This document shows, one piece after another, positions 8,145-15,350 of a stretch of 17,684 nt of DNA (its first letter is position 1; each line of letters opens with the position of its first letter). The notes under the pieces are model-generated. The model worked only from the letters and a program-made list of their open reading frames with translations. It searched no databases and was not told where the DNA came from. The position numbers were made by a program, and so were the translations under genes. The DNA is taken from assembly GCA_005889285.1 (NCBI GenBank), contig VBFF01000048.1:1-17684 (forward strand), in the 5' to 3' direction. This stretch comes from Chloroflexota bacterium. GTDB taxonomy: Bacteria > Chloroflexota > Dormibacteria > CF-121.

Positions 8145-8738
8145 ATGGCGCAAGCCGCCGACCACCCGAGCGACGTCGTTTCCATGGAGGCGCTGATCCG
8201 CCACCAGCTGGTGCTGCTCGGCGAGGATCCGTCGCGCGAAGGGCTTCGGGACACCCCCGAGCGGGTCAAGGAAAGCCTCGAGTTCCTTACCCGTGGCTAC
8301 CGCATGACACTGGAGGATGTCTTCGGCGGCGCCACCTTCACCGAAACCTATAAGGACATGGTGGTCGTCAAGGACATCGAGATGTACTCCCTCTGCGAGC
8401 ATCATCTGCTGCCGTTTTACGGCCGCGTGCATATCGGCTACATCCCCAGGGGGCGGCTGGTCGGTCTCAGCAAAATGCCCCGGCTGGTGGAGCTCTACAG
8501 CCGGCGGCTCCAGGTTCAGGAGCGGATGACACGCCAGATCGCCGAGTGCCTGCAGAAGTACCTGGAACCAGTGGGCGTAGGCGTGGTCATCGAGGCCGAT
8601 CACCTGTGCATGAAGATGCGCGGCGTGGAGAAGCAGAACAGCCGGGTCTTCACGAGCTGCGTGCTGGGCATCTTCCAGACCGATCCGAAGACCCGCGCCG
8701 AGTTCATGGGCCTGATCAAGGGCGTCCCCAACCTCTAA
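8145..8738 (+). CDS. folE: GTP cyclohydrolase I
   Basis: This enzyme (EC 3.5.4.16) converts GTP to 7,8-dihydroneopterin triphosphate, the first step to folate and other pterins. The 197 residues cover the full type I family. The zinc site is intact: Cys84 and His87 in [10 protein letters not shown] and Cys155 in [10 protein letters not shown], with the 71-residue spacing between the two cysteines seen in the E. coli and human enzymes. Other hallmarks are [18 protein letters not shown] (99-116), RLQVQERMT (121-129) and [11 protein letters not shown] (162-172). The ATG at 8145 gives a typical N-terminus. The gene is followed after 9 bp by a DUF72 gene. No other folate gene is visible, so the neighbourhood does not indicate which pterin product is needed. 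Confidence 0.98.
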
Positions 8739-8747
8739 TACGGGGAC

Positions 8748-9467
8748 GTGCCCCAGTTCTTCGTCGGCACGTCGGGGTTTTCCTATGCAGGCTGGCGAGG
8801 ACGGTTCTATCCACGCCGCATCAAGTCGGCGGACATGCTGGGCTACTACGCCCAGCACCTCCCAACGGTCGAGGTCAACACCACTTTCTATCGGACGCAG
8901 CCGGAAGGGGTCATCGCCAGCTGGGTGGCACGCGTCCCGCCGGACTTCCGCTTCGCGGTCAAGGCCCACCGGCGCATCACGCACAACCGCCGCATGCCCA
9001 ATCTGGAGGAGGCGGTCCGGATGCTGGCGGAGGAGGCCAGGGCCTTTGGGGATCGGTTAGGCCCCGTCCTCTTTCAGCTGCCACCGACCGCGCCCTTCGA
9101 TGACGGTCGGATCGAACGGATCATGGCTCTGCTCCCGTCCCATTGGCGCGTCGCTTTCCAGTTCCGCCACCGCTCCTGGCACACACCGCAGGTCGCTGAC
9201 CTGCTGGAGCGATTGGGGGCTTCGCTCGTCCATGGCGATGGGGAGGAAGAGCCCGGGCCGGTCGGGCGTGGTGCGTTCATCTACCTGCGCCTGCGCCGCG
9301 ACACCTACTCCCCGCAGCGGCGCGCCGCCTGGGTGCGGCGGATTGCCGGGTACCTGACGGGTGGCCGTGACGTCTACGCCTACTTCAAGCACGAATCGCT
9401 GGGGCCGTTTTACGCGCAGCGGCTGGAGACGGCAATCCGAACATCTTTTCGGCGTCCCGCCGTATAA
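8748..9467 (+). CDS. DUF72 family protein
   Basis: This 239-residue member of the DUF72 (YecE-like) family is predicted to fold as a TIM barrel; the biochemical role of the family is not established. Family hallmarks are present in order: GTSGFSYAGWRGRFYP near the N-terminus, NTTFYR, FAVKAHRRITH, LGPVLFQLPP, FQFRHRSWH, and DVYAYFKHE close to the C-terminus. The start is a GTG at 8748, which places the conserved GTSG motif at residue 7, as usual. It lies 9 bp after folE, suggesting co-transcription, although TAATAC six bases before the GTG could be a leaderless -10. The last codons overlap a TATAAT that may be the promoter of ku. Confidence 0.93.
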   Translation: MPQFFVGTSGFSYAGWRGRFYPRRIKSADMLGYYAQHLPTVEVNTTFYRTQPEGVIASWVARVPPDFRFAVKAHRRITHNRRMPNLEEAVRMLAEEARAFGDRLGPVLFQLPPTAPFDDGRIERIMALLPSHWRVAFQFRHRSWHTPQVADLLERLGASLVHGDGEEEPGPVGRGAFIYLRLRRDTYSPQRRAAWVRRIAGYLTGGRDVYAYFKHESLGPFYAQRLETAIRTSFRRPAV

Positions 9468-9468
9468 T
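9463..9468 (+). promoter_or_regulatory. Consensus -10 TATAAT upstream of ku
   Basis: A perfect TATAAT overlaps the DUF72 stop codon and lies 32 bp before the ku ATG. Initiation about 7 bp downstream would give a short leader containing the AAAGGAG ribosome site at 9485-9491 (9-nt spacing). The -35 region is weak. This suggests ku can be transcribed independently of the upstream genes. Confidence 0.45.
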
Positions 9469-9500
9469 CCGGGCAACCCAGCGAAAAGGAGACCAGTTAA

Positions 9501-10382
9501 ATGGCCCGGTCCATGTGGCGGGGCGCGATCAGCTTCGGGATGGTGGCGATCCCGGTCCGCATGTACCTCGCCACCGAGGCACACAGCGCCGTGTCCTTCC
9601 GACAGCTGTGCCCCCATTGCCAGCTCCCCATCAAACAGCAGCGGCATTGCCCGACCGATGACCACGTGGTGGCGTTCAACGAGGTGCTCAAGGGCTACGA
9701 GGTCGGAAAGAATCAGTTCGTCTTGATCGACGAGGAGGACCTCGATAAGCTCCCGCTCAAGACCACCAGGACGATCGACATCGTCGAATTCGTCGAGCGT
9801 ACCGAAGTGCCGCTTGGCCTGTACATCAAATCGGCTTACTACCTGGAGCCCGAGGATGTCGGGGTCAAGCCCTTCTACCTGCTCAAGCGCGCCCTCGAAG
9901 ACACGAATAAGGTGGCCGTCGCGAAGATTGCCTTGCGCGACCGCGAGCATCTGTCCCTGATCCAGGTCGAGGGCAATACGCTCCTCTGCAACACGCTGAA
10001 TTGGCCGGACGAGATCCGATCCACCGAGGAACTGAACCTCCCGCAGAACGTCAAGATCAGCGACAAAGAGGTCAAGATGGCGACCTCGCTGATCGATAAC
10101 CTGACGGACACGTTCCAGCCGGAGCGCTACACCGATGACTACAAGGCCGCCTTCCAGCAGATCGTCGATCAAAAGATGAAGGGCCTCAAGGTGGTAGCCC
10201 CGGCCGCCGCGCAGGAGCCCCGCGTCATGGATCTGATGGCGGCGCTGAAAGCATCGGTGGAGGCGACCAAGCAGGGGAAGAAGAAGCCGGCCGAGAAGCC
10301 TGCCGCGAGTCGCGCGGCCAAGGTCAAGGTGGCGGCGAAAACTTCAGCGGCCCGTCCGGCCGCGCGACGTCGCACGGCCTGA
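9501..10382 (+). CDS. ku: Bacterial Ku, DNA end-binding protein of non-homologous end joining
   Basis: Ku forms a homodimeric ring on DNA double-strand ends and recruits the ligase for non-homologous end joining. The 293 residues begin with MARSMWRGAISFGMVAIPV, the family's N-terminal signature, and continue with FRQLCPHC/HCPTDD (34-54), a Cys-containing segment common in bacterial Ku. The KTTRTIDIVEFVE and YYLEPE motifs of the ring, and ALRDREHLSLIQVEG, follow. The core ends near residue 240; after about 255 there is a Lys/Ala/Pro/Arg-rich tail ending in ARRRTA. Basic C-terminal tails are known in some bacterial Ku proteins and contribute to DNA binding. The start has a strong ribosome site (AAAGGAG, 9 nt). 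A ligase-fold gene follows after 24 bp, the classic partnership, but that partner lacks catalytic residues. Confidence 0.97.
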   Translation: MARSMWRGAISFGMVAIPVRMYLATEAHSAVSFRQLCPHCQLPIKQQRHCPTDDHVVAFNEVLKGYEVGKNQFVLIDEEDLDKLPLKTTRTIDIVEFVERTEVPLGLYIKSAYYLEPEDVGVKPFYLLKRALEDTNKVAVAKIALRDREHLSLIQVEGNTLLCNTLNWPDEIRSTEELNLPQNVKISDKEVKMATSLIDNLTDTFQPERYTDDYKAAFQQIVDQKMKGLKVVAPAAAQEPRVMDLMAALKASVEATKQGKKKPAEKPAASRAAKVKVAAKTSAARPAARRRTA

Positions 10383-10392
10383 CCTGGCGTAG

Positions 10393-10398
10393 TACAGT
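10393..10398 (+). promoter_or_regulatory. TACAGT, candidate -10 element upstream of the ligase-fold gene
   Basis: TACAGT lies 8 bp before the GTG start at 10407. The same hexamer occurs 6 bp before the next operon's GTG start (11471-11476). No ribosome site is visible before 10407, which would suit a leaderless transcript. No -35 was recognised. Confidence 0.3.
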
Positions 10399-10406
10399 CC
10401 GCTAGA

Positions 10407-11465
10407 GTGCCGGCGCGGTCCCAAACGGTTGAGCTCGACTTGCCTTTCCAGCGCGCCCTGCCGGATCGGTTGCGCCCCATGCTCCCCATGCCGGCCGCCG
10501 GGCCCTTCGACTCTCAGGACTACGCGTTCGAAGTGTCCTGGGATGGCGTTCGGGCTTTGGCGTCGATCGATGGGGGGCAGGTTCGACTCTGGGGCCGCGA
10601 CCTCCGCGACCTCACCGGCCGCTATCCAGAAGTCCAGGCGCTCGCCGCACTGGCGCCGCCGGAAACGATCGTCGATGGCGAACTGATCGTGACGGACGCC
10701 GCCGGCCGCCCCGACGGCGTGGCGCTCGAGGCGCGTCAGCAGGCGCTGCGTCCCGAAACCATCGCCCGCGCGGCCGCCGCGCACCCGGCAACGTATGTCG
10801 TCTATGACCTGCTCTACATGCGCGGCAAGTCGCTCATGAAGGAACCATTGGTCCGTCGCCGGCCGAAGGTGTATCAGTCGATTGCCTCGAGCGGGCGCAT
10901 CTACGTCGTCGAGCCAGTTGCGAAGGACGGCCTCGCCTTCTTCGAGGCGGCCAAGGAGAACGGGCTGGGCGGCGTGGTCGCCAAGCGCTTCGACAGTCCC
11001 TACCGCGCTGGTCAGCGCCACCCGGACTGGCTCCTGATCGAAGCCGCCCGACGCCAGGACTTTGCCGTCGTCGGCTTCATTCCGGAGGCGGGCGAGCACC
11101 TGTTGGAGGCACTGATCGTGGCCGCCTACGACGGCCGGCACTTCCAGCCGGCGGGCCGGGTCGTGGGTGGCTTCGATACGGACGCGTCGCGGCGTATACG
11201 AAAGATGCTCGACGGCCTCCCCGGCGCGTCGCCCCCCGATGACCCTCGCTGGTCGGATGACCGGATCTGCTGGATCGAGCCTCGTATCGTCGTGGCCGTC
11301 AAGTTCAGTGAATGGGACCGCAACGGGCAGTTGCGCTTCCCGATCTTCAGCGGATTGCGGCCCGAGGTCTCCCCGCAGGAGTGCGTCCGCACCGCCATGG
11401 TCGAGCCGCCGGAACCGGCCCGCCCCCGCCAGGTCGACATCCAGCTGCCGCGCCTCCTCATCTAA
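10407..11465 (+). CDS. ATP-dependent DNA ligase-fold protein (LigD/LigC-like) with degenerate active site, Ku partner
   Basis: The 352 residues align by eye along the whole catalytic core of Ku-associated ATP-dependent ligases: RPMLPMPA (23-30), motif I region FEVSWDGVRAL (41-51), motif III VDGELIV (89-95), VVYDLLYMRG (131-140), motif IV region LGGVVAKRFDSPYR (187-200), motif V region DWLLIEA (207-213), and an OB-fold with VKFSEWDRNGQLRFPIFSGLR (298-318). The nucleotide-pocket residues are altered. The adenylated Lys of KxDG is Ser44 (codon TCC), the motif IV Glu is Gly188, both motif V lysines are Leu210 and Glu212, and motif VI ends in PEV rather than xDK. The frame is unbroken and the fold residues are kept, so this is not simple decay. 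Family knowledge says these lysines are essential, so ligase activity is not expected. A scaffold or DNA-end-binding role with Ku is inference. Confidence 0.85.
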   Translation: MPARSQTVELDLPFQRALPDRLRPMLPMPAAGPFDSQDYAFEVSWDGVRALASIDGGQVRLWGRDLRDLTGRYPEVQALAALAPPETIVDGELIVTDAAGRPDGVALEARQQALRPETIARAAAAHPATYVVYDLLYMRGKSLMKEPLVRRRPKVYQSIASSGRIYVVEPVAKDGLAFFEAAKENGLGGVVAKRFDSPYRAGQRHPDWLLIEAARRQDFAVVGFIPEAGEHLLEALIVAAYDGRHFQPAGRVVGGFDTDASRRIRKMLDGLPGASPPDDPRWSDDRICWIEPRIVVAVKFSEWDRNGQLRFPIFSGLRPEVSPQECVRTAMVEPPEPARPRQVDIQLPRLLI

Positions 11466-11470
11466 GTTCG

Positions 11471-11476
11471 TACAGT
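11471..11476 (+). promoter_or_regulatory. TACAGT, candidate -10 element at leaderless distance before the hydroxylase operon
   Basis: TACAGT is followed by six bases (AGGAGC) and the GTG start at 11483. It could be the -10 of a leaderless transcript for the three-gene operon. The AGGAG one base before the GTG is the competing explanation as a closely spaced ribosome site. Confidence 0.35.
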
Positions 11477-11482
11477 AGGAGC

Positions 11483-11971
11483 GTGCCGATCGCGGACCGG
11501 GTCGCCGTGCGCCTGCGCGTCAACGGCGAAGAGATGGCCGTCATGGTGGCGCCCTACAAAACGTTGCTGGAAGTCCTGCGCGAGGACCTGGGACTGACAG
11601 GCACCAAGCACGGCTGCGAGCTGGGTGAGTGCTCCACCTGCGGTGTGCTCGTCGACGGCCGGCCGTACCTCTCCTGCCTTGCCATGCCGCTCGACCTCGA
11701 GGGGCGCGAGATCACGACGGTCGAAGGGATGGCGCATGGGAGTGACCCGGATCCTCTCCAGGTCGCGTTTGCCGAATTGGGGGCCGCGCAATGTGGGTAT
11801 TGCACGCCGGCGATGCTGCTCACCGCCAGGGCGCTGCTCGACCGTGACCCGCACCCAACGCGCGACGCGATCAAGGAAGCGCTTTCCGGCGTGCTCTGCC
11901 GCTGTACTGGTTACCTCAAGATCTTCGAGGCCGTCGAGCTGGCGGCGTCGAGAGGCAGGCGCCATGGCTGA
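11483..11971 (+). CDS. Molybdenum hydroxylase, [2Fe-2S] subunit (HcrC/CoxS-like)
   Basis: This small iron-sulfur subunit of a xanthine-oxidase-family enzyme passes electrons between the molybdenum centre and the flavin subunit. The 162 residues hold both clusters. The plant-ferredoxin-type N-terminal cluster uses Cys45, Cys50, Cys53 and Cys65 (GCELGECSTCG...LSC). The helical C-terminal cluster uses Cys104, Cys107, Cys139 and Cys141 (CGYCTPAM...CRCTGY). The frame is open further upstream, but the GTG at 11483 is chosen because it follows AGGAG, clears the ligase gene and puts the first beta strand (VRLRVNGEE) at residue 9. The stop overlaps the start of the large subunit by 8 nt, indicating an operon in the order small, large, medium. 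Subunit type is certain; the substrate depends on the other subunits. Confidence 0.95.
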   Translation: MPIADRVAVRLRVNGEEMAVMVAPYKTLLEVLREDLGLTGTKHGCELGECSTCGVLVDGRPYLSCLAMPLDLEGREITTVEGMAHGSDPDPLQVAFAELGAAQCGYCTPAMLLTARALLDRDPHPTRDAIKEALSGVLCRCTGYLKIFEAVELAASRGRRHG

Positions 11972-14318
11972 CGAGCTCGCTATCGTCGGCAAGTCGTTGA
12001 CCAAGCCTGACGCCTTCGCCAAGGTGAGCGGGCAAACGAGGTTTGCCGATGACCTCGCCCTGCCCCGGATGCTCTTCGGGCGGATCCTCCGCAGCCCGCA
12101 CCCACACGCACGGATCGTGGGCGTCGACACCAGCCGGGCTCGCGCGCTACCCGGTGTGCTGGCGGTGCTGACCGGCGACGACCTCCCCATCAAGTTCGGC
12201 ATCCTGCCGGTGAGCCAGGACGAGGAGGCACTCGCGCGCGAAAAGGTCCGCTATGTCGGCGATCCGGTTGCGGCGGTGGCGGCCACCGACGAGTGGATTG
12301 CCGACGAGGCGCTCGACCTGATCGAAGTGGAATTCACTCAGCTTCCGCCCATCATGTCGATCGAGCAGGCGATTGCCGCCGATGCCGAGCCCATCCACGG
12401 CGCCTCGAATGTGCACAAGGCGGTGGCGCTTGAGTTCGGCGACACCGACGAGGCCATGCGCGCGGCGCAGCACGTCCGCGAAGATGTCGTCTTCTTCGAA
12501 GGCAACACGCATCTGCCGATGGAGCAGCACGCGGCTCTCGCCCAATACGGGGCGGACGGCAAGCTCACGCTCTGGACGTCGTCGCAAACCCCGCATTACG
12601 TGCACCGCGCCCTGGGCAAGGTGCTCGAGCTGCCGATGAGCCGTATCCGCGTGATCGCGACGCCGAACGGCGGCGGCTTCGGGGGCAAAAGCGACATCTT
12701 CTCGCACGAGCTGGTGGCCGCCCGGCTCGCCATCGTCACCGGGCGGCCGGTGAAGATCACGCTCACCCGCGAGGAGGTCTTCTACGCACACCGCGGACGC
12801 CACCCCGTGCTGATGAGGGTCAAGACGGGTCTCACGAGAGACGGCCGCATCACGGCCATGCAGTTTCGCAGCTTCCTCGATGGCGGCGGCTATGGGAGCT
12901 ACGGCGTGGCCAGCACCTACTACACCGGCGCCCTGCAGGCGACCACCTACGCGATCCCCCGCTATCGATTCGAAGCCCTCCGGGTGTTCACGAATAAGCC
13001 GCCCTGTGGGCCCAAGCGAGGCCATGGCACCCCGCAGCCCCGCTTTGCCCTGGAGACGCATTTCGACAAGGTTGCGGAAGAGCTCGGTCTCGATCCGGTC
13101 GAGCTGCGGCTGCGCAACCTGCCTCGTCCGGACTCGCGCACGGTCAACTGGCTGCGCATCACCAGCTGCGGGCTTGAGGCCTGCATTAATAAGGTTGTCG
13201 AAGGTTCGGGATTCCTCGAGCGGCGTCGCTCCATGCCACGCGGCCGCGGTCTCGGCTTCGCGGTGAGCTCGTACCTGAGCGGGGCCGGAACCGCCATCTA
13301 CTGGAACGACATGCCACACTCCGAGGTTCAACTCAAGCTGGACCGCAACGGTGGCGTGGCCTTGCTCTGCGGCGCGATCGACATCGGCCAGGGGTCCGAC
13401 CACATCCTGGCCGCGATCGTCGCCGAGGTTCTCGGGGTGGCGCTGGAGGACATCCAGCTCACCACTGCCGACACCGACCTGACGCCGATCGACCTGGGGA
13501 GCTACTCGTCGCGGGTCACCTTCATGGCCGGCAACGCCGCCAAGGCGGCGGCCGAGAAGGTGCGAGCTCAACTCTTCGAAGCGGTGGCGAGGGCGCTGCC
13601 ATGCGATGTGGACGACCTGGTCGCTCGCGACCGCCGGATCGTTCGCCGAAACCGACCGGAGGAAGGCGTGTCCTTCACGCAGGCGGTCCAGCTCGTCGAG
13701 GCAGGGGGCGGTGTGGTCACCGCCACCGGCAGTTACACCCCGCCCAAGCTTGCCGGCCCCTACAAGGGATCGGGTGTCGGTCCCAGCCCGGCCTACTCGT
13801 TCTCCGCGGCGGTCGTCGAAGTCGACTGCGATGTCAGCACCGGCGAGGTCCGCGTCCCCGAGGTCTGGATCGCCCACGATATCGGGCGCGCCATCAACCC
13901 GGTGCTGGTCGAAGGCCAGGTCGAGGGGAGCGTCTACATGGCGCTGGGGGAAGCGCTGATGGAGGAGCAGACGTTCCGCCTCGGGTTGCACAAGTTCCCC
14001 TCGCTGCTCGAGTACAAGAGTCCGACCGCGCTCGAGGCGCCGGTGATGCACACCTACCTGGTCGAGACGATCGATCGCGAAGGACCCTTCGGGGCCAAGG
14101 AGGCGGGACAGGGTCCGCTGCTGCCAGTCATCCCGGCGGTGGCGAACGCCGTCTACAACGCGCTGGGCGTCCGCATCGACGAGATCCCGATCACGCCCGA
14201 CAAGGTCCTCAAGGCGATGGCGGACAGGAGCAAGCGGGTCGGGCCGGCGTCGACGCCCGCCTTCGAGTTCCCGCCGCTGATCAAGGCCGAGATCCCCGAG
14301 GAGTGGAAGGGCAAGTAG
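11964..14318 (+). CDS. Molybdenum hydroxylase, molybdopterin-binding large subunit (4-hydroxybenzoyl-CoA reductase alpha-like)
   Basis: This 784-residue catalytic subunit of the xanthine-oxidase family binds the Mo-pterin cofactor. Hallmarks: MEQHAALA (186-193), GGGFGGKSD (236-244), a loop PPCGPKRGHGTPQPRFALE (346-364), the IDIGQGSDH segment (472-480), LGSYSSRVTFMAGNA (511-525) and AKEAGQGPLLP (711-721) with the conserved active-site Glu713. The loop at 346-364 lacks the AYxCSFR signature of form I CO dehydrogenase; the KRGHGTPQPRF form is one I associate with the 4-hydroxybenzoyl-CoA reductase alpha group. The ATG at 11964 overlaps the small-subunit stop; a longer frame back to 11625 lies inside that gene and is rejected. 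The medium-subunit GTG follows the stop directly. The exact substrate is not proven. Confidence 0.92.
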   Translation: MADELAIVGKSLTKPDAFAKVSGQTRFADDLALPRMLFGRILRSPHPHARIVGVDTSRARALPGVLAVLTGDDLPIKFGILPVSQDEEALAREKVRYVGDPVAAVAATDEWIADEALDLIEVEFTQLPPIMSIEQAIAADAEPIHGASNVHKAVALEFGDTDEAMRAAQHVREDVVFFEGNTHLPMEQHAALAQYGADGKLTLWTSSQTPHYVHRALGKVLELPMSRIRVIATPNGGGFGGKSDIFSHELVAARLAIVTGRPVKITLTREEVFYAHRGRHPVLMRVKTGLTRDGRITAMQFRSFLDGGGYGSYGVASTYYTGALQATTYAIPRYRFEALRVFTNKPPCGPKRGHGTPQPRFALETHFDKVAEELGLDPVELRLRNLPRPDSRTVNWLRITSCGLEACINKVVEGSGFLERRRSMPRGRGLGFAVSSYLSGAGTAIYWNDMPHSEVQLKLDRNGGVALLCGAIDIGQGSDHILAAIVAEVLGVALEDIQLTTADTDLTPIDLGSYSSRVTFMAGNAAKAAAEKVRAQLFEAVARALPCDVDDLVARDRRIVRRNRPEEGVSFTQAVQLVEAGGGVVTATGSYTPPKLAGPYKGSGVGPSPAYSFSAAVVEVDCDVSTGEVRVPEVWIAHDIGRAINPVLVEGQVEGSVYMALGEALMEEQTFRLGLHKFPSLLEYKSPTALEAPVMHTYLVETIDREGPFGAKEAGQGPLLPVIPAVANAVYNALGVRIDEIPITPDKVLKAMADRSKRVGPASTPAFEFPPLIKAEIPEEWKGK

Positions 14319-15350
14319 GTGCTGCGCCTGCCACGACTCGACTACCTGCGTCCGCGATCCATCGCGGAGGCGACGGAGCTGGCCGCGAAAAACCCGGGCG
14401 CCATGTTCATCGCCGGCGGGACCGACCTGGTGCCCAACCTAAAACGCCGCCAGTTCGATGCCACCGCATTGATCAGCCTCAACGTGCTGCCGGATACACG
14501 GCGGATCGAGGGCGACGCCAGCCGCGGTGTAACCATCGGCGCCGGTGCCACGCTCGATGAGCTCGCGCAGCACGAGGCGCTTGCGGGTCCCTTCCGCGCC
14601 CTGGGCCAGGCGTGCGGATCCGTTTCCACACCCCAGGTCCGCACCATGGGGACGCTCGGCGGCAACCTGCTGGTCGACCCGCGCTGCAACTACTACAACC
14701 AGACGTATTCCTGGCGGAAGGCGGTTGGCTTCTGCCTGAAGAAGGATGGCGACATTTGCCTGGTGGCGCGCAGCTCGCCGCGCTGCTGGGCGGTGTCATC
14801 GTCGGACAGCGCGCCGGCGGCACTGGCCCTCAACGCCGAGGTCACCCTCCAGGGTATGGAGGGTACGCGCCGCCTGGCGGCCGCTGCGCTCTACCGGGAC
14901 GATGGGATCGCGTACACGACCAAGCGAGCCGACGAGGTCATCACCGCGGTGCACCTCCCCGCCTCTCGCGGCCGGATGACGAGCGCCTACTGGAAACTCC
15001 GCCGCCGGCCGGCCTTTGACTTTCCGATCCTCGGCGTGGCAGTCGCGATCACCTGGGATGAGGGCGCGGTGCGCGCGGCTCGTGGTGCGCTGGGCGCCGT
15101 GGGTTCGCACCCCGTCGATATCACCTCGTTCCTCGCGCCACTGCAGGGCACCCGCCCGACCGAGGACCTGATCACGGAGGTCGCCCAGGCAGCTGACAAA
15201 CCCTCGCGGCCGCTCGACAACACGGACCTCAGTCATTACTGGCGCAAGCGGATGACAAAGGTCTATATCGAGCGGGCGTTGCGAGACGCCTGCGGATTCG
15301 AGCCGCTTGCTGGGAGATTGACGGCACAGGTCCGGGGCGGCGCCAGGTAA
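14319..15350 (+). CDS. Molybdenum hydroxylase, FAD subunit with extra [4Fe-4S] motif (4-hydroxybenzoyl-CoA reductase beta-like)
   Basis: This 343-residue flavoprotein subunit completes the three-subunit enzyme. FAD-binding motifs are FIAGGTDLVPN (30-40) and MGTLGGNLLVDPRC (110-123). Between them and the C-terminal domain lies an insert with four cysteines: Cys123, Cys139, Cys147 and Cys156. Their spacing of 16, 8 and 9 matches the ligands I recall for the extra [4Fe-4S] cluster in Thauera aromatica HcrB (Cys122, 138, 146, 155). The flanking text (CNYYNQ, GDICLVA, SSPRCWAVSSSDSAP) also resembles HcrB. Ordinary CoxM proteins lack this insert. The GTG start directly follows the large-subunit stop, so translation is probably coupled. 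Reduction of an aromatic-CoA ring substituent is known for HcrB relatives; here the reaction is inferred and could run as a hydroxylation on another aromatic or heterocycle. Confidence 0.93.
   Translation: MLRLPRLDYLRPRSIAEATELAAKNPGAMFIAGGTDLVPNLKRRQFDATALISLNVLPDTRRIEGDASRGVTIGAGATLDELAQHEALAGPFRALGQACGSVSTPQVRTMGTLGGNLLVDPRCNYYNQTYSWRKAVGFCLKKDGDICLVARSSPRCWAVSSSDSAPAALALNAEVTLQGMEGTRRLAAAALYRDDGIAYTTKRADEVITAVHLPASRGRMTSAYWKLRRRPAFDFPILGVAVAITWDEGAVRAARGALGAVGSHPVDITSFLAPLQGTRPTEDLITEVAQAADKPSRPLDNTDLSHYWRKRMTKVYIERALRDACGFEPLAGRLTAQVRGGAR

Follow-up and report, generated by a model that had tools for sequence, protein, structure and literature searches.

The window analyzed here, a stretch of 17,684 nucleotides from a Chloroflexota genome, carries on its forward strand a ku gene (positions 9501 to 10382), recognized by the TIGR02772 Ku_bact model with 279.7 bits for a cut-off of 150, followed by a ligase-like gene on the same strand (10407 to 11465). 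The second gene starts with a GTG at 10407, ends with a stop codon at 11463–11465 and encodes 352 amino acids; its reading frame was confirmed to be open and full length. Only 24 bp separate the end of ku at 10382 from the ligase start at 10407, which suggests co-expression. The pair belongs to the gene order folE-DUF72-ku-ligase-coxS-coxL-coxM (window positions 8145–15350), found in eight of ten stretches from the window's family, hereafter f1. In this comparison ku was identified by model and the folE, DUF72 and cox (CO-dehydrogenase-like) names were assigned by eye; two of the stretches (L100 and L010) are probably one contig, L102 starts at ku and L008 has no folE match.

The original prediction described the product as an intact, full-length ligase fold, and the sequence models agree: PF01068 (ligase NTase) scored 95.3 bits for a cut-off of 26.2, and PF04679 (C-terminal, OB) 66.0 bits for a cut-off of 27.5, while TIGR02779 reached 215.8 bits, below its curated cut-off of 227.75. 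The two Pfam cut-offs were also passed by one copy each from families f2 and f78 and by the L016 copy, all described below. A phmmer comparison aligned the window protein with the ligase domain of Mycobacterium tuberculosis (Mtb) LigD (1vs0, 6nhx, 6nhz) with E-values from 3e-36 to 2.7e-35; residue numbers of the Mtb enzyme, taken from PMC8656161, were placed on this alignment by hand count. The protein consists of the ligase core alone, with no fused PE or Pol domain, and lies outside the LigD rows in the tree. By its sequence it is thus a full-length LigD-type ligase core in both fold and descent. Among the 120 listed of its 249 database matches, the few relatives named by organism are Chloroflexi or Candidatus Dormibacteraeota MAGs, and annotation sources that name the protein often call it 'bifunctional non-homologous end joining protein LigD', a label to be treated with caution.

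Two conserved tails lie outside this core. The N-terminal tail VELDLPF (residues 8–14, forward strand 10428–10448) is conserved in those rows of a 34-sequence alignment that reach it, and a similar tail is present in many intact copies of the sister family f3. The C-terminal tail, IQLPRLLI in the window protein (forward strand 11439–11462), is mostly LPRLPI or LPRLLI in f1 and LTRFPF in the intact sister family.

Residues of the active site were counted over 121 aligned f1 sequences, comprising the window protein and the 120 listed of its 249 matches. Ser44 (codon tcc, 10536–10538) aligns with Mtb Lys481, the position of the adenylated lysine in motif I, KxDG. This position is occupied by alanine in 105 sequences, serine in 10, threonine in 3, and valine and aspartate in one each, with one gap, so that lysine is found in none of the 120 scorable sequences. 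The motif V KxK is replaced by L210-I211-E212 (11034–11042), with Leu210 at Mtb Lys635 and Glu212 at Mtb Lys637, and neither position carries a lysine in any of the 121 sequences. Both replacements had been called from the window alone, as had the retention of the motif III DGE (residues 90–92, 10674–10682), whose Glu92 is kept in 118 of 121 sequences. Two further substitutions proposed at that stage are present but carry less weight. Gly188 (10968–10970) does stand at the motif IV glutamate position, Mtb Glu613, but this is a lineage-local change, since position 188 is Glu in 64 of the 121 sequences, Gly in 31, Ser in 12, Asp in 11 and another residue in 2. Likewise, motif VI reads RPEV (residues 318–321, 11358–11369) in place of Asp-Lys, but the lysine is also missing from intact relatives: among 120 listed enzymes of the intact sister set its position is Val in 111 and Ile in 9, their motif being mostly RPEV or RPEI, and the full-length LigD of the window genome itself reads RDDV. 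Motif VI is therefore not diagnostic and was rejected as a mark of death.

The broader claim that every lysine and acid of the pocket had been lost holds for the motif I and motif V lysines but not for the rest of the nucleotide site. Arg49 (120 of 121 sequences), Arg64 (120), Glu92 (118), Lys193 (121) and Arg204 (120) are retained; they align with Mtb Arg486, Arg501, Glu530, Lys618 and Arg629, which, according to PMC8656161, contact the ribose, adenine or gamma-phosphate. Lys193 (10983–10985), the ordinary motif IV lysine, is the sole invariant lysine of f1. Judging from the alignment, the residues needed for chemistry have been removed in f1 and the seat for the nucleotide mostly kept, a combination that would make binding of ATP or of an adenylated end without reaction possible. 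Two trivial explanations were considered and rejected. A sequencing or assembly error is incompatible with the 120 listed relatives on many separate contigs. A misalignment hiding another lysine was discarded because the WxGxR context is intact and no lysine other than Lys193 is invariant; an alternative pocket lysine, searched for in the alignment, was not found.

The window assembly (1.73 Mb, 82% complete) also encodes a 900-aa LigD with an EVKWDG motif and a 355-aa LigC-like ligase with EPKWDG, in keeping with the separate active ligase envisaged by the original prediction. Two additional Ku-like loci (G000:C149 and G000:C180), away from the window's contig, encode proteins with 43% and 31% identity to the window Ku in their longest matches, both outside the clade of ligase-linked Kus in the Ku tree. 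Within f1 the gene is present in 16 of 18 genomes; no match of the ku-linked ligase type was found in G401 or G167. In all 16 genomes the frame is open, the gene lies directly after ku on the same strand and the motif I and V lysines are absent, so the same lysines are lost in orthologues beside ku, the comparison that the original prediction asked for. Thirteen of the 16 also encode a LigD with intact motifs; in G400 and G406 the matches are partial, and in G199 the only match besides the pseudo-ligase is LigC-like. Orthologues with KxDG, which could have pointed to a local error, do exist in the sister family (31 of 37 genomes) but are absent from f1; confined in this way, they date the loss.

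Selection was estimated by simple pairwise counting, with dS limits of 0.05–1.2 for f1 and 0.05–1.5 for f2, f3 and f78. Within the window's genus (g1), pairs including the window's gene gave dN/dS values of 0.075–0.182 (8 of 12 pairs satisfied the dS limits); across the f1 family, 88 pairs had a median of 0.167. This is close to the neighboring coxM (0.143) and DUF72 (0.181) and above ku (0.062) and folE (0.069) in the same family. The dead copies of f2 gave 0.11 (10 pairs) and the intact copies of f3 0.096 (36 pairs); f78, a family of a second class of the phylum, was higher, with a median of 0.357 (15 pairs). On these sequence comparisons the f1 gene is retained by purifying selection as a pseudoenzyme beside ku. 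The family-wide absence of the lysines, the ku linkage in 16 of 16 genomes and the dN/dS of 0.075–0.182 together argue that neither an error nor simple decay explains the gene, and the earlier view of catalytic residues lost in an open frame without decay is upheld, all 16 frames being open.

A second family, f2, carries dead copies in a different setting. Among the 18 loci read, the ligase gene lies directly after ku on the same strand in all 14 where it was found, and these 14 loci all run LigD, ku, dead ligase along one strand. At three others (G429, G425 and G422) the contig ends too soon for the ligase gene, and in G417 no ku or ligase copy was found within 19 kb. The seven f2 LigDs read for motifs are all intact, and in G045, G159 and G054 no Ku was found besides the ligase-linked one. 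All 14 copies have Asp or Glu at the motif I lysine position, and among the 120 listed of 130 database matches this position is Asp in 115 and Glu in 2, with 3 gaps (Asp44 in 115 of 117). In the same set the motif III Glu is Val in 116 of 120, the motif IV Lys is Arg in all 120 (Arg193), and Arg and Ala predominate at the motif V positions, with Arg210 in 115 of 120; the family has thus mostly lost the motif III and IV acids as well. Among these 120 of 130 matches, lysine exceeds 80% of sequences at none of the columns that align with the window protein. As the replacement residues are themselves conserved, the f2 site appears remodeled rather than drifting.

Copies of the sister family f3 are mostly intact: 31 of 37 genomes keep the motif I Lys, DGE, the motif IV Glu and the motif V KxK. 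The database set for this family, 120 listed of 2802 matches, over-represents near relatives of an intact query, and its 120 of 120 intact sequences are therefore no estimate for f3. The six lesioned copies are those of G175, G254, G036, G446, G391 and G454; in G175 and G254 the motif I Lys is replaced by Arg, with DGV, a motif IV Ala and QxE. In 32 of the 37 genomes ku adjoins the ligase, and the five copies without adjacent ku (G175, G254, G391, G036 and G454; loci L170, L174, L171, L173 and L175) are all lesioned, the sixth lesioned copy, that of G446, adjoining ku. Lesions in f3 thus mostly accompany lost ku linkage and look more like decay. A different Ku type near a Pol-like gene was observed in G254, G391 and G175. 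At loci L251–L253, L255, L256, L258 and L259 a PE-ligase is followed directly, or with overlap, by a separate Pol-like gene, forming a split LigD. All 10 f3 PE-ligases read have the motif I Lys, and since f3 combines these with an intact Ku-linked ligase, a second ligase alone does not cause the loss. Apart from ku, the f3 stretches compared have nothing in common with the window beyond weak ABC-transporter matches at most.

The search was extended to 294 genomes drawn from another class, 19 of which gave matches at E 1e-85 or better, and, phylum-wide, to 400 genomes drawn from a larger group, with strict thresholds. In the second class, the copy of G477 is fully intact (KWDG, DGE, EG, KIK, REDK) and overlaps ku by 4 bp; no other LigD-type match was found in this 1.7 Mb, 93% complete genome, and the locus (G477:C1, L344 7580–9444) is possibly a minimal two-gene NHEJ system. 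The remaining copies show graded states. The G504 copy has KWDG and no motif V Lys, five copies (f134, f105, f112) have KWGG and no motif V lysines, and the eight f78 genomes have M/LWGG, with Met at the nucleophile position in six and Leu in two. The G474 copy reads AWDG, and three f131 copies have L or I at the lysine position.

A ku match lies near the ligase in 14 of the 19 second-class genomes, the exceptions being G608, G474, G673, G629 and G583; wider flanks placed a ku within 4 kb beside LigD in G673 and G583. In G501, G559 and G588 a lesioned copy (KWGG, no motif V Lys), ku and LigD share one strand, in the order LigD-ku-ligase in G501 and ligase-ku-LigD in the other two. A second LigD-type match was sought in 18 of the genomes (G634 left out), 17 of them lesioned, and was present in a frame of at least 440 aa in 13 of the 17, but not in G617, G608, G474 and G629. 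The 12 second-class LigDs read for motifs were all intact; the match of G476, one of the 13, is 443 aa long at a contig end and lies outside these 12. In G629 a short, weak LigD-like piece stands beside the ligase gene at a contig end. In the lesioned genomes G474 (95% complete) and G608 (90% complete) the search at the threshold yielded just the one LigD-type match, and no ku match was found in the 16 and 12 kb of sequence read. The rule that the gene is dead only where another LigD exists is thus only partly true.

Beyond these two classes, a copy from a Dehalococcoidia MAG (L016) has Leu for the motif I Lys and DGV, with the motif V lysines kept. Three Actinomycetota proteins, from two Amycolatopsis species and one MAG (L079 5536–6603, L082 2–1150 and L066 3234–4361), combine a LigD_N phosphoesterase domain with a ligase NTase domain whose nucleophile position is Ala; they have no motif V lysines and give no match to the C-terminal ligase model. 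Their sequences mark them as a parallel dead ligase.

Phylogenetic trees were built from 87, 50, 48 and 66 ligase rows (f3 represented by 20 of 37 copies in the first; f1 by 7 of 16 and f3 by 12 of 37 in the last) and from 58 Ku rows (12 of the 32 linked Kus of f3). The catalytic columns were left out of the alignment for the 87-row and 66-row trees, and the trees leave out the f2 fragment of G411 (132 aa, contig end), the LigD-type protein of G401, the LigC-like protein and duplicate G054 rows. Families f1, f2 and f3 and L016 form one clade apart from LigD (support 100/98, 87 rows), as they do with the second-class copies added (100/100 in both the 48-row and 66-row trees). A clade of mostly Ku-linked standalone NHEJ-type ligases, distinct from LigD by these trees, runs through the phylum. 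The linked Kus of f1, f2 and f3 (42 rows) are likewise one clade (100/99, 58-row tree), so the ku-ligase pair looks old and largely inherited together.

Parsimony on the 66-row tree requires at least six changes of the motif I Lys, at least six of the motif V Lys and at least three of the 'fully intact' label. Such counts cannot separate loss from regain; because of the LigD outgroup rows and the intact G477 copy, the six motif I changes are read as losses, and the replacing residues, which differ by lineage, fit independent losses. The order of the families differs between the genes: ligase trees group f1 with f3 (99/91 with 87 rows, 95/93 with 50 rows) and the Ku tree groups f1 with f2 (99/92). 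On the 50-row ligase tree, topology tests reject neither an f1+f2 clade (p-AU 0.089) nor an f2+f3 clade (p-AU 0.257), and f1 and f2 may share a single ancestral loss.

Taken together, these results leave us nearly certain that the window protein is a true pseudo-ligase, and catalytic loss would have preceded the diversification of f1. Somewhat better than even, in our judgment, are the chances that this protein serves Ku as a dedicated, non-catalytic partner with a ligase fold, acting as a Ku-bound scaffold or gate for sealing by LigD, as linkage and precedent suggest. The adjacency to ku in 16 of 16 f1, all 14 f2 copies found and 32 of 37 f3 genomes supports a partnership with Ku, and the LigDs intact in 13 of 16 f1 genomes and in all 12 read in the second class leave other ligases to seal. 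Ku and a standalone ligase may have formed an old two-gene joining module, which G477 may still retain; ligase chemistry would then have become dispensable while in many cases the protein remained linked to Ku; its retention would be explained most economically by a structural role at ends bound by Ku. The dead ligase would bind the Ku-DNA end complex much like the LigD ligase domain, with the conserved tails (VELDLPF; LPRLPI, or LTRFPF in f3) as candidate contact sites, and would hold or align the ends and admit a separate active ligase, LigD, thus serving as scaffold or gate and not as sealer. In f1 it may also take up ATP or an adenylated end but not react with it.

That the protein binds Ku, binds nicks or ends and regulates LigD is in this way inferred from linkage, phylogeny and precedent. 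In the studies concerned, the isolated LIG domain is bound by the core of Mtb Ku (PMC9638933), Dnl4 without catalytic activity continues to promote imprecise NHEJ in yeast, where Cdc9 probably does the sealing (PMC3694833), and Mtb LigD K481M was engineered to capture the ATP-bound state before adenylylation (PMC8656161). With this last precedent, the Met at the nucleophile in six of eight f78 copies makes non-reactive ATP binding a live possibility. Several observations run against the scaffold reading: G474 and G608 are lesioned with no second LigD-type match and, in the stretches read, no ku match, most lesions in f3 accompany the loss of ku linkage, and the dN/dS of f78 is 0.357. In addition, f3 keeps two ligases with the motif I Lys, the 'fully intact' label needs only three changes, f1, f2 and f3 branch in a different order in the ligase trees than in the Ku tree, and the window genome's other two Ku-like loci lie off its contig.

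The same facts would suit a dominant-negative regulator: sitting on nicks or on Ku at the LIG site, the dead ligase would hold back error-prone joining by LigD until conditions permit its release; the kept nucleotide-site arginines and Lys193 make binding without sealing plausible, and the 24 bp gap to ku hints at co-expression. We regard this as rather unlikely, because the yeast Dnl4 catalytic mutants accumulated at DSBs and none was dominant negative, as PMC3694833 describes, and because f2 lacks most of the pocket residues, yet its gene is kept by ku. A sealer confined to step 3, incapable of self-adenylation and rescuing abortive ligation by sealing ends pre-adenylated by LigD, finds a precedent in an archaeal RNA ligase whose motif I Lys-to-Ala mutant keeps step 3 on pre-adenylated donors. 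In the same source (PMC3514331), though, the double motif I and motif V lysine mutant is inactive in all steps; every scorable f1 sequence is without Lys at the two motifs, and f2 has mostly lost the motif III and IV acids too. With both lysines gone, such sealing is hard to credit. Chemistry from a migrated or unusual nucleophile, suggested by the invariance of Lys193 in f1 and by the kept nucleotide-contact arginines, is the possibility to which we give least weight: Lys193 is found equally in intact relatives and LigD, the f2 alignment offers no column of widely shared lysine, and the motif V lysines are gone.

Slow decay of a redundant, dying ligase held in place by its neighbors would account for the separate LigD in most genomes, the five lesioned f3 copies without adjacent ku and the graded states KWDG, KWGG and MWGG across the second class. 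It nevertheless seems quite improbable given the full-length open frames, a dN/dS well below 1 in f1 and f2, and the conserved alternative catalytic-site residues of f2 (Asp44, Arg193 and Arg210). A function outside end joining, for instance with the folE, DUF72 and CO-dehydrogenase-like genes of the f1 run, draws on the order shared by eight of ten f1 stretches; but the gene neighbors LigD instead in f2, G501, G559 and G588, and f3 shares little of the window's neighborhood besides ku, so there is only a slight chance of such a role.

The usual description of bacterial NHEJ names two proteins, Ku and LigD. If several lineages maintain a dead ligase next to Ku, often clustered with an intact LigD, some of what the ligase does in end joining would be structural. 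More boldly, it is conceivable, if doubtful, that the family represents a third core NHEJ component, a Ku-dedicated subunit that joins Ku at breaks, binds ATP or adenylate without reacting and gates LigD, which would have arisen by repeated, independent silencing of a Ku-linked ligase in one phylum, the structural job outweighing the chemistry. Because orthologues occur naturally in intact, half-eroded and dead states, and many lie next to their own Ku, a non-sealing role of a ligase can be tested directly.

Pseudoenzymes and non-catalytic roles of ligases are already known, and what may be new is the repeated Ku-linked pattern itself. No description of a natural Ku-linked dead DNA ligase was found among the open-licence papers listed, judged by title and the start of the abstract, and a survey of bacterial NHEJ (PMC7719229) contains none of the words inactive, catalytic, Chloroflexi, Dormibact, pseudogene and standalone.

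Among the closest known systems is the LIG domain of LigD (Mtb 1vs0, 6nhx and 6nhz), which by sequence has the same two-domain ligase core and whose ribose, adenine and gamma-phosphate contacts are kept in f1. The window protein differs from it in having no PE or Pol domain and no equivalents of Lys481, Lys635 and Lys637, and its clade is separate from the LigD of the same organisms. The stand-alone LigC/LigD-type ligases of Streptomyces, as presented in PMC5124664, are also ligase cores alone and lie near ku in some genomes; their deletion gives damage phenotypes and they are treated as working enzymes, whereas the window family has lost its catalytic residues. The trypanosome AdoMetDC prozyme (PMC5201418) is similarly a dead paralogue kept beside an active one, but its fold and pathway are unrelated, and activation by the dead ligase would be hypothetical. 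Finally, the dead yeast DNA ligase IV mutants resemble the proposed scaffold in that a non-adenylating ligase still promotes end joining at breaks; those proteins (PMC3694833) are laboratory point mutants, whereas the window family is a natural gene.
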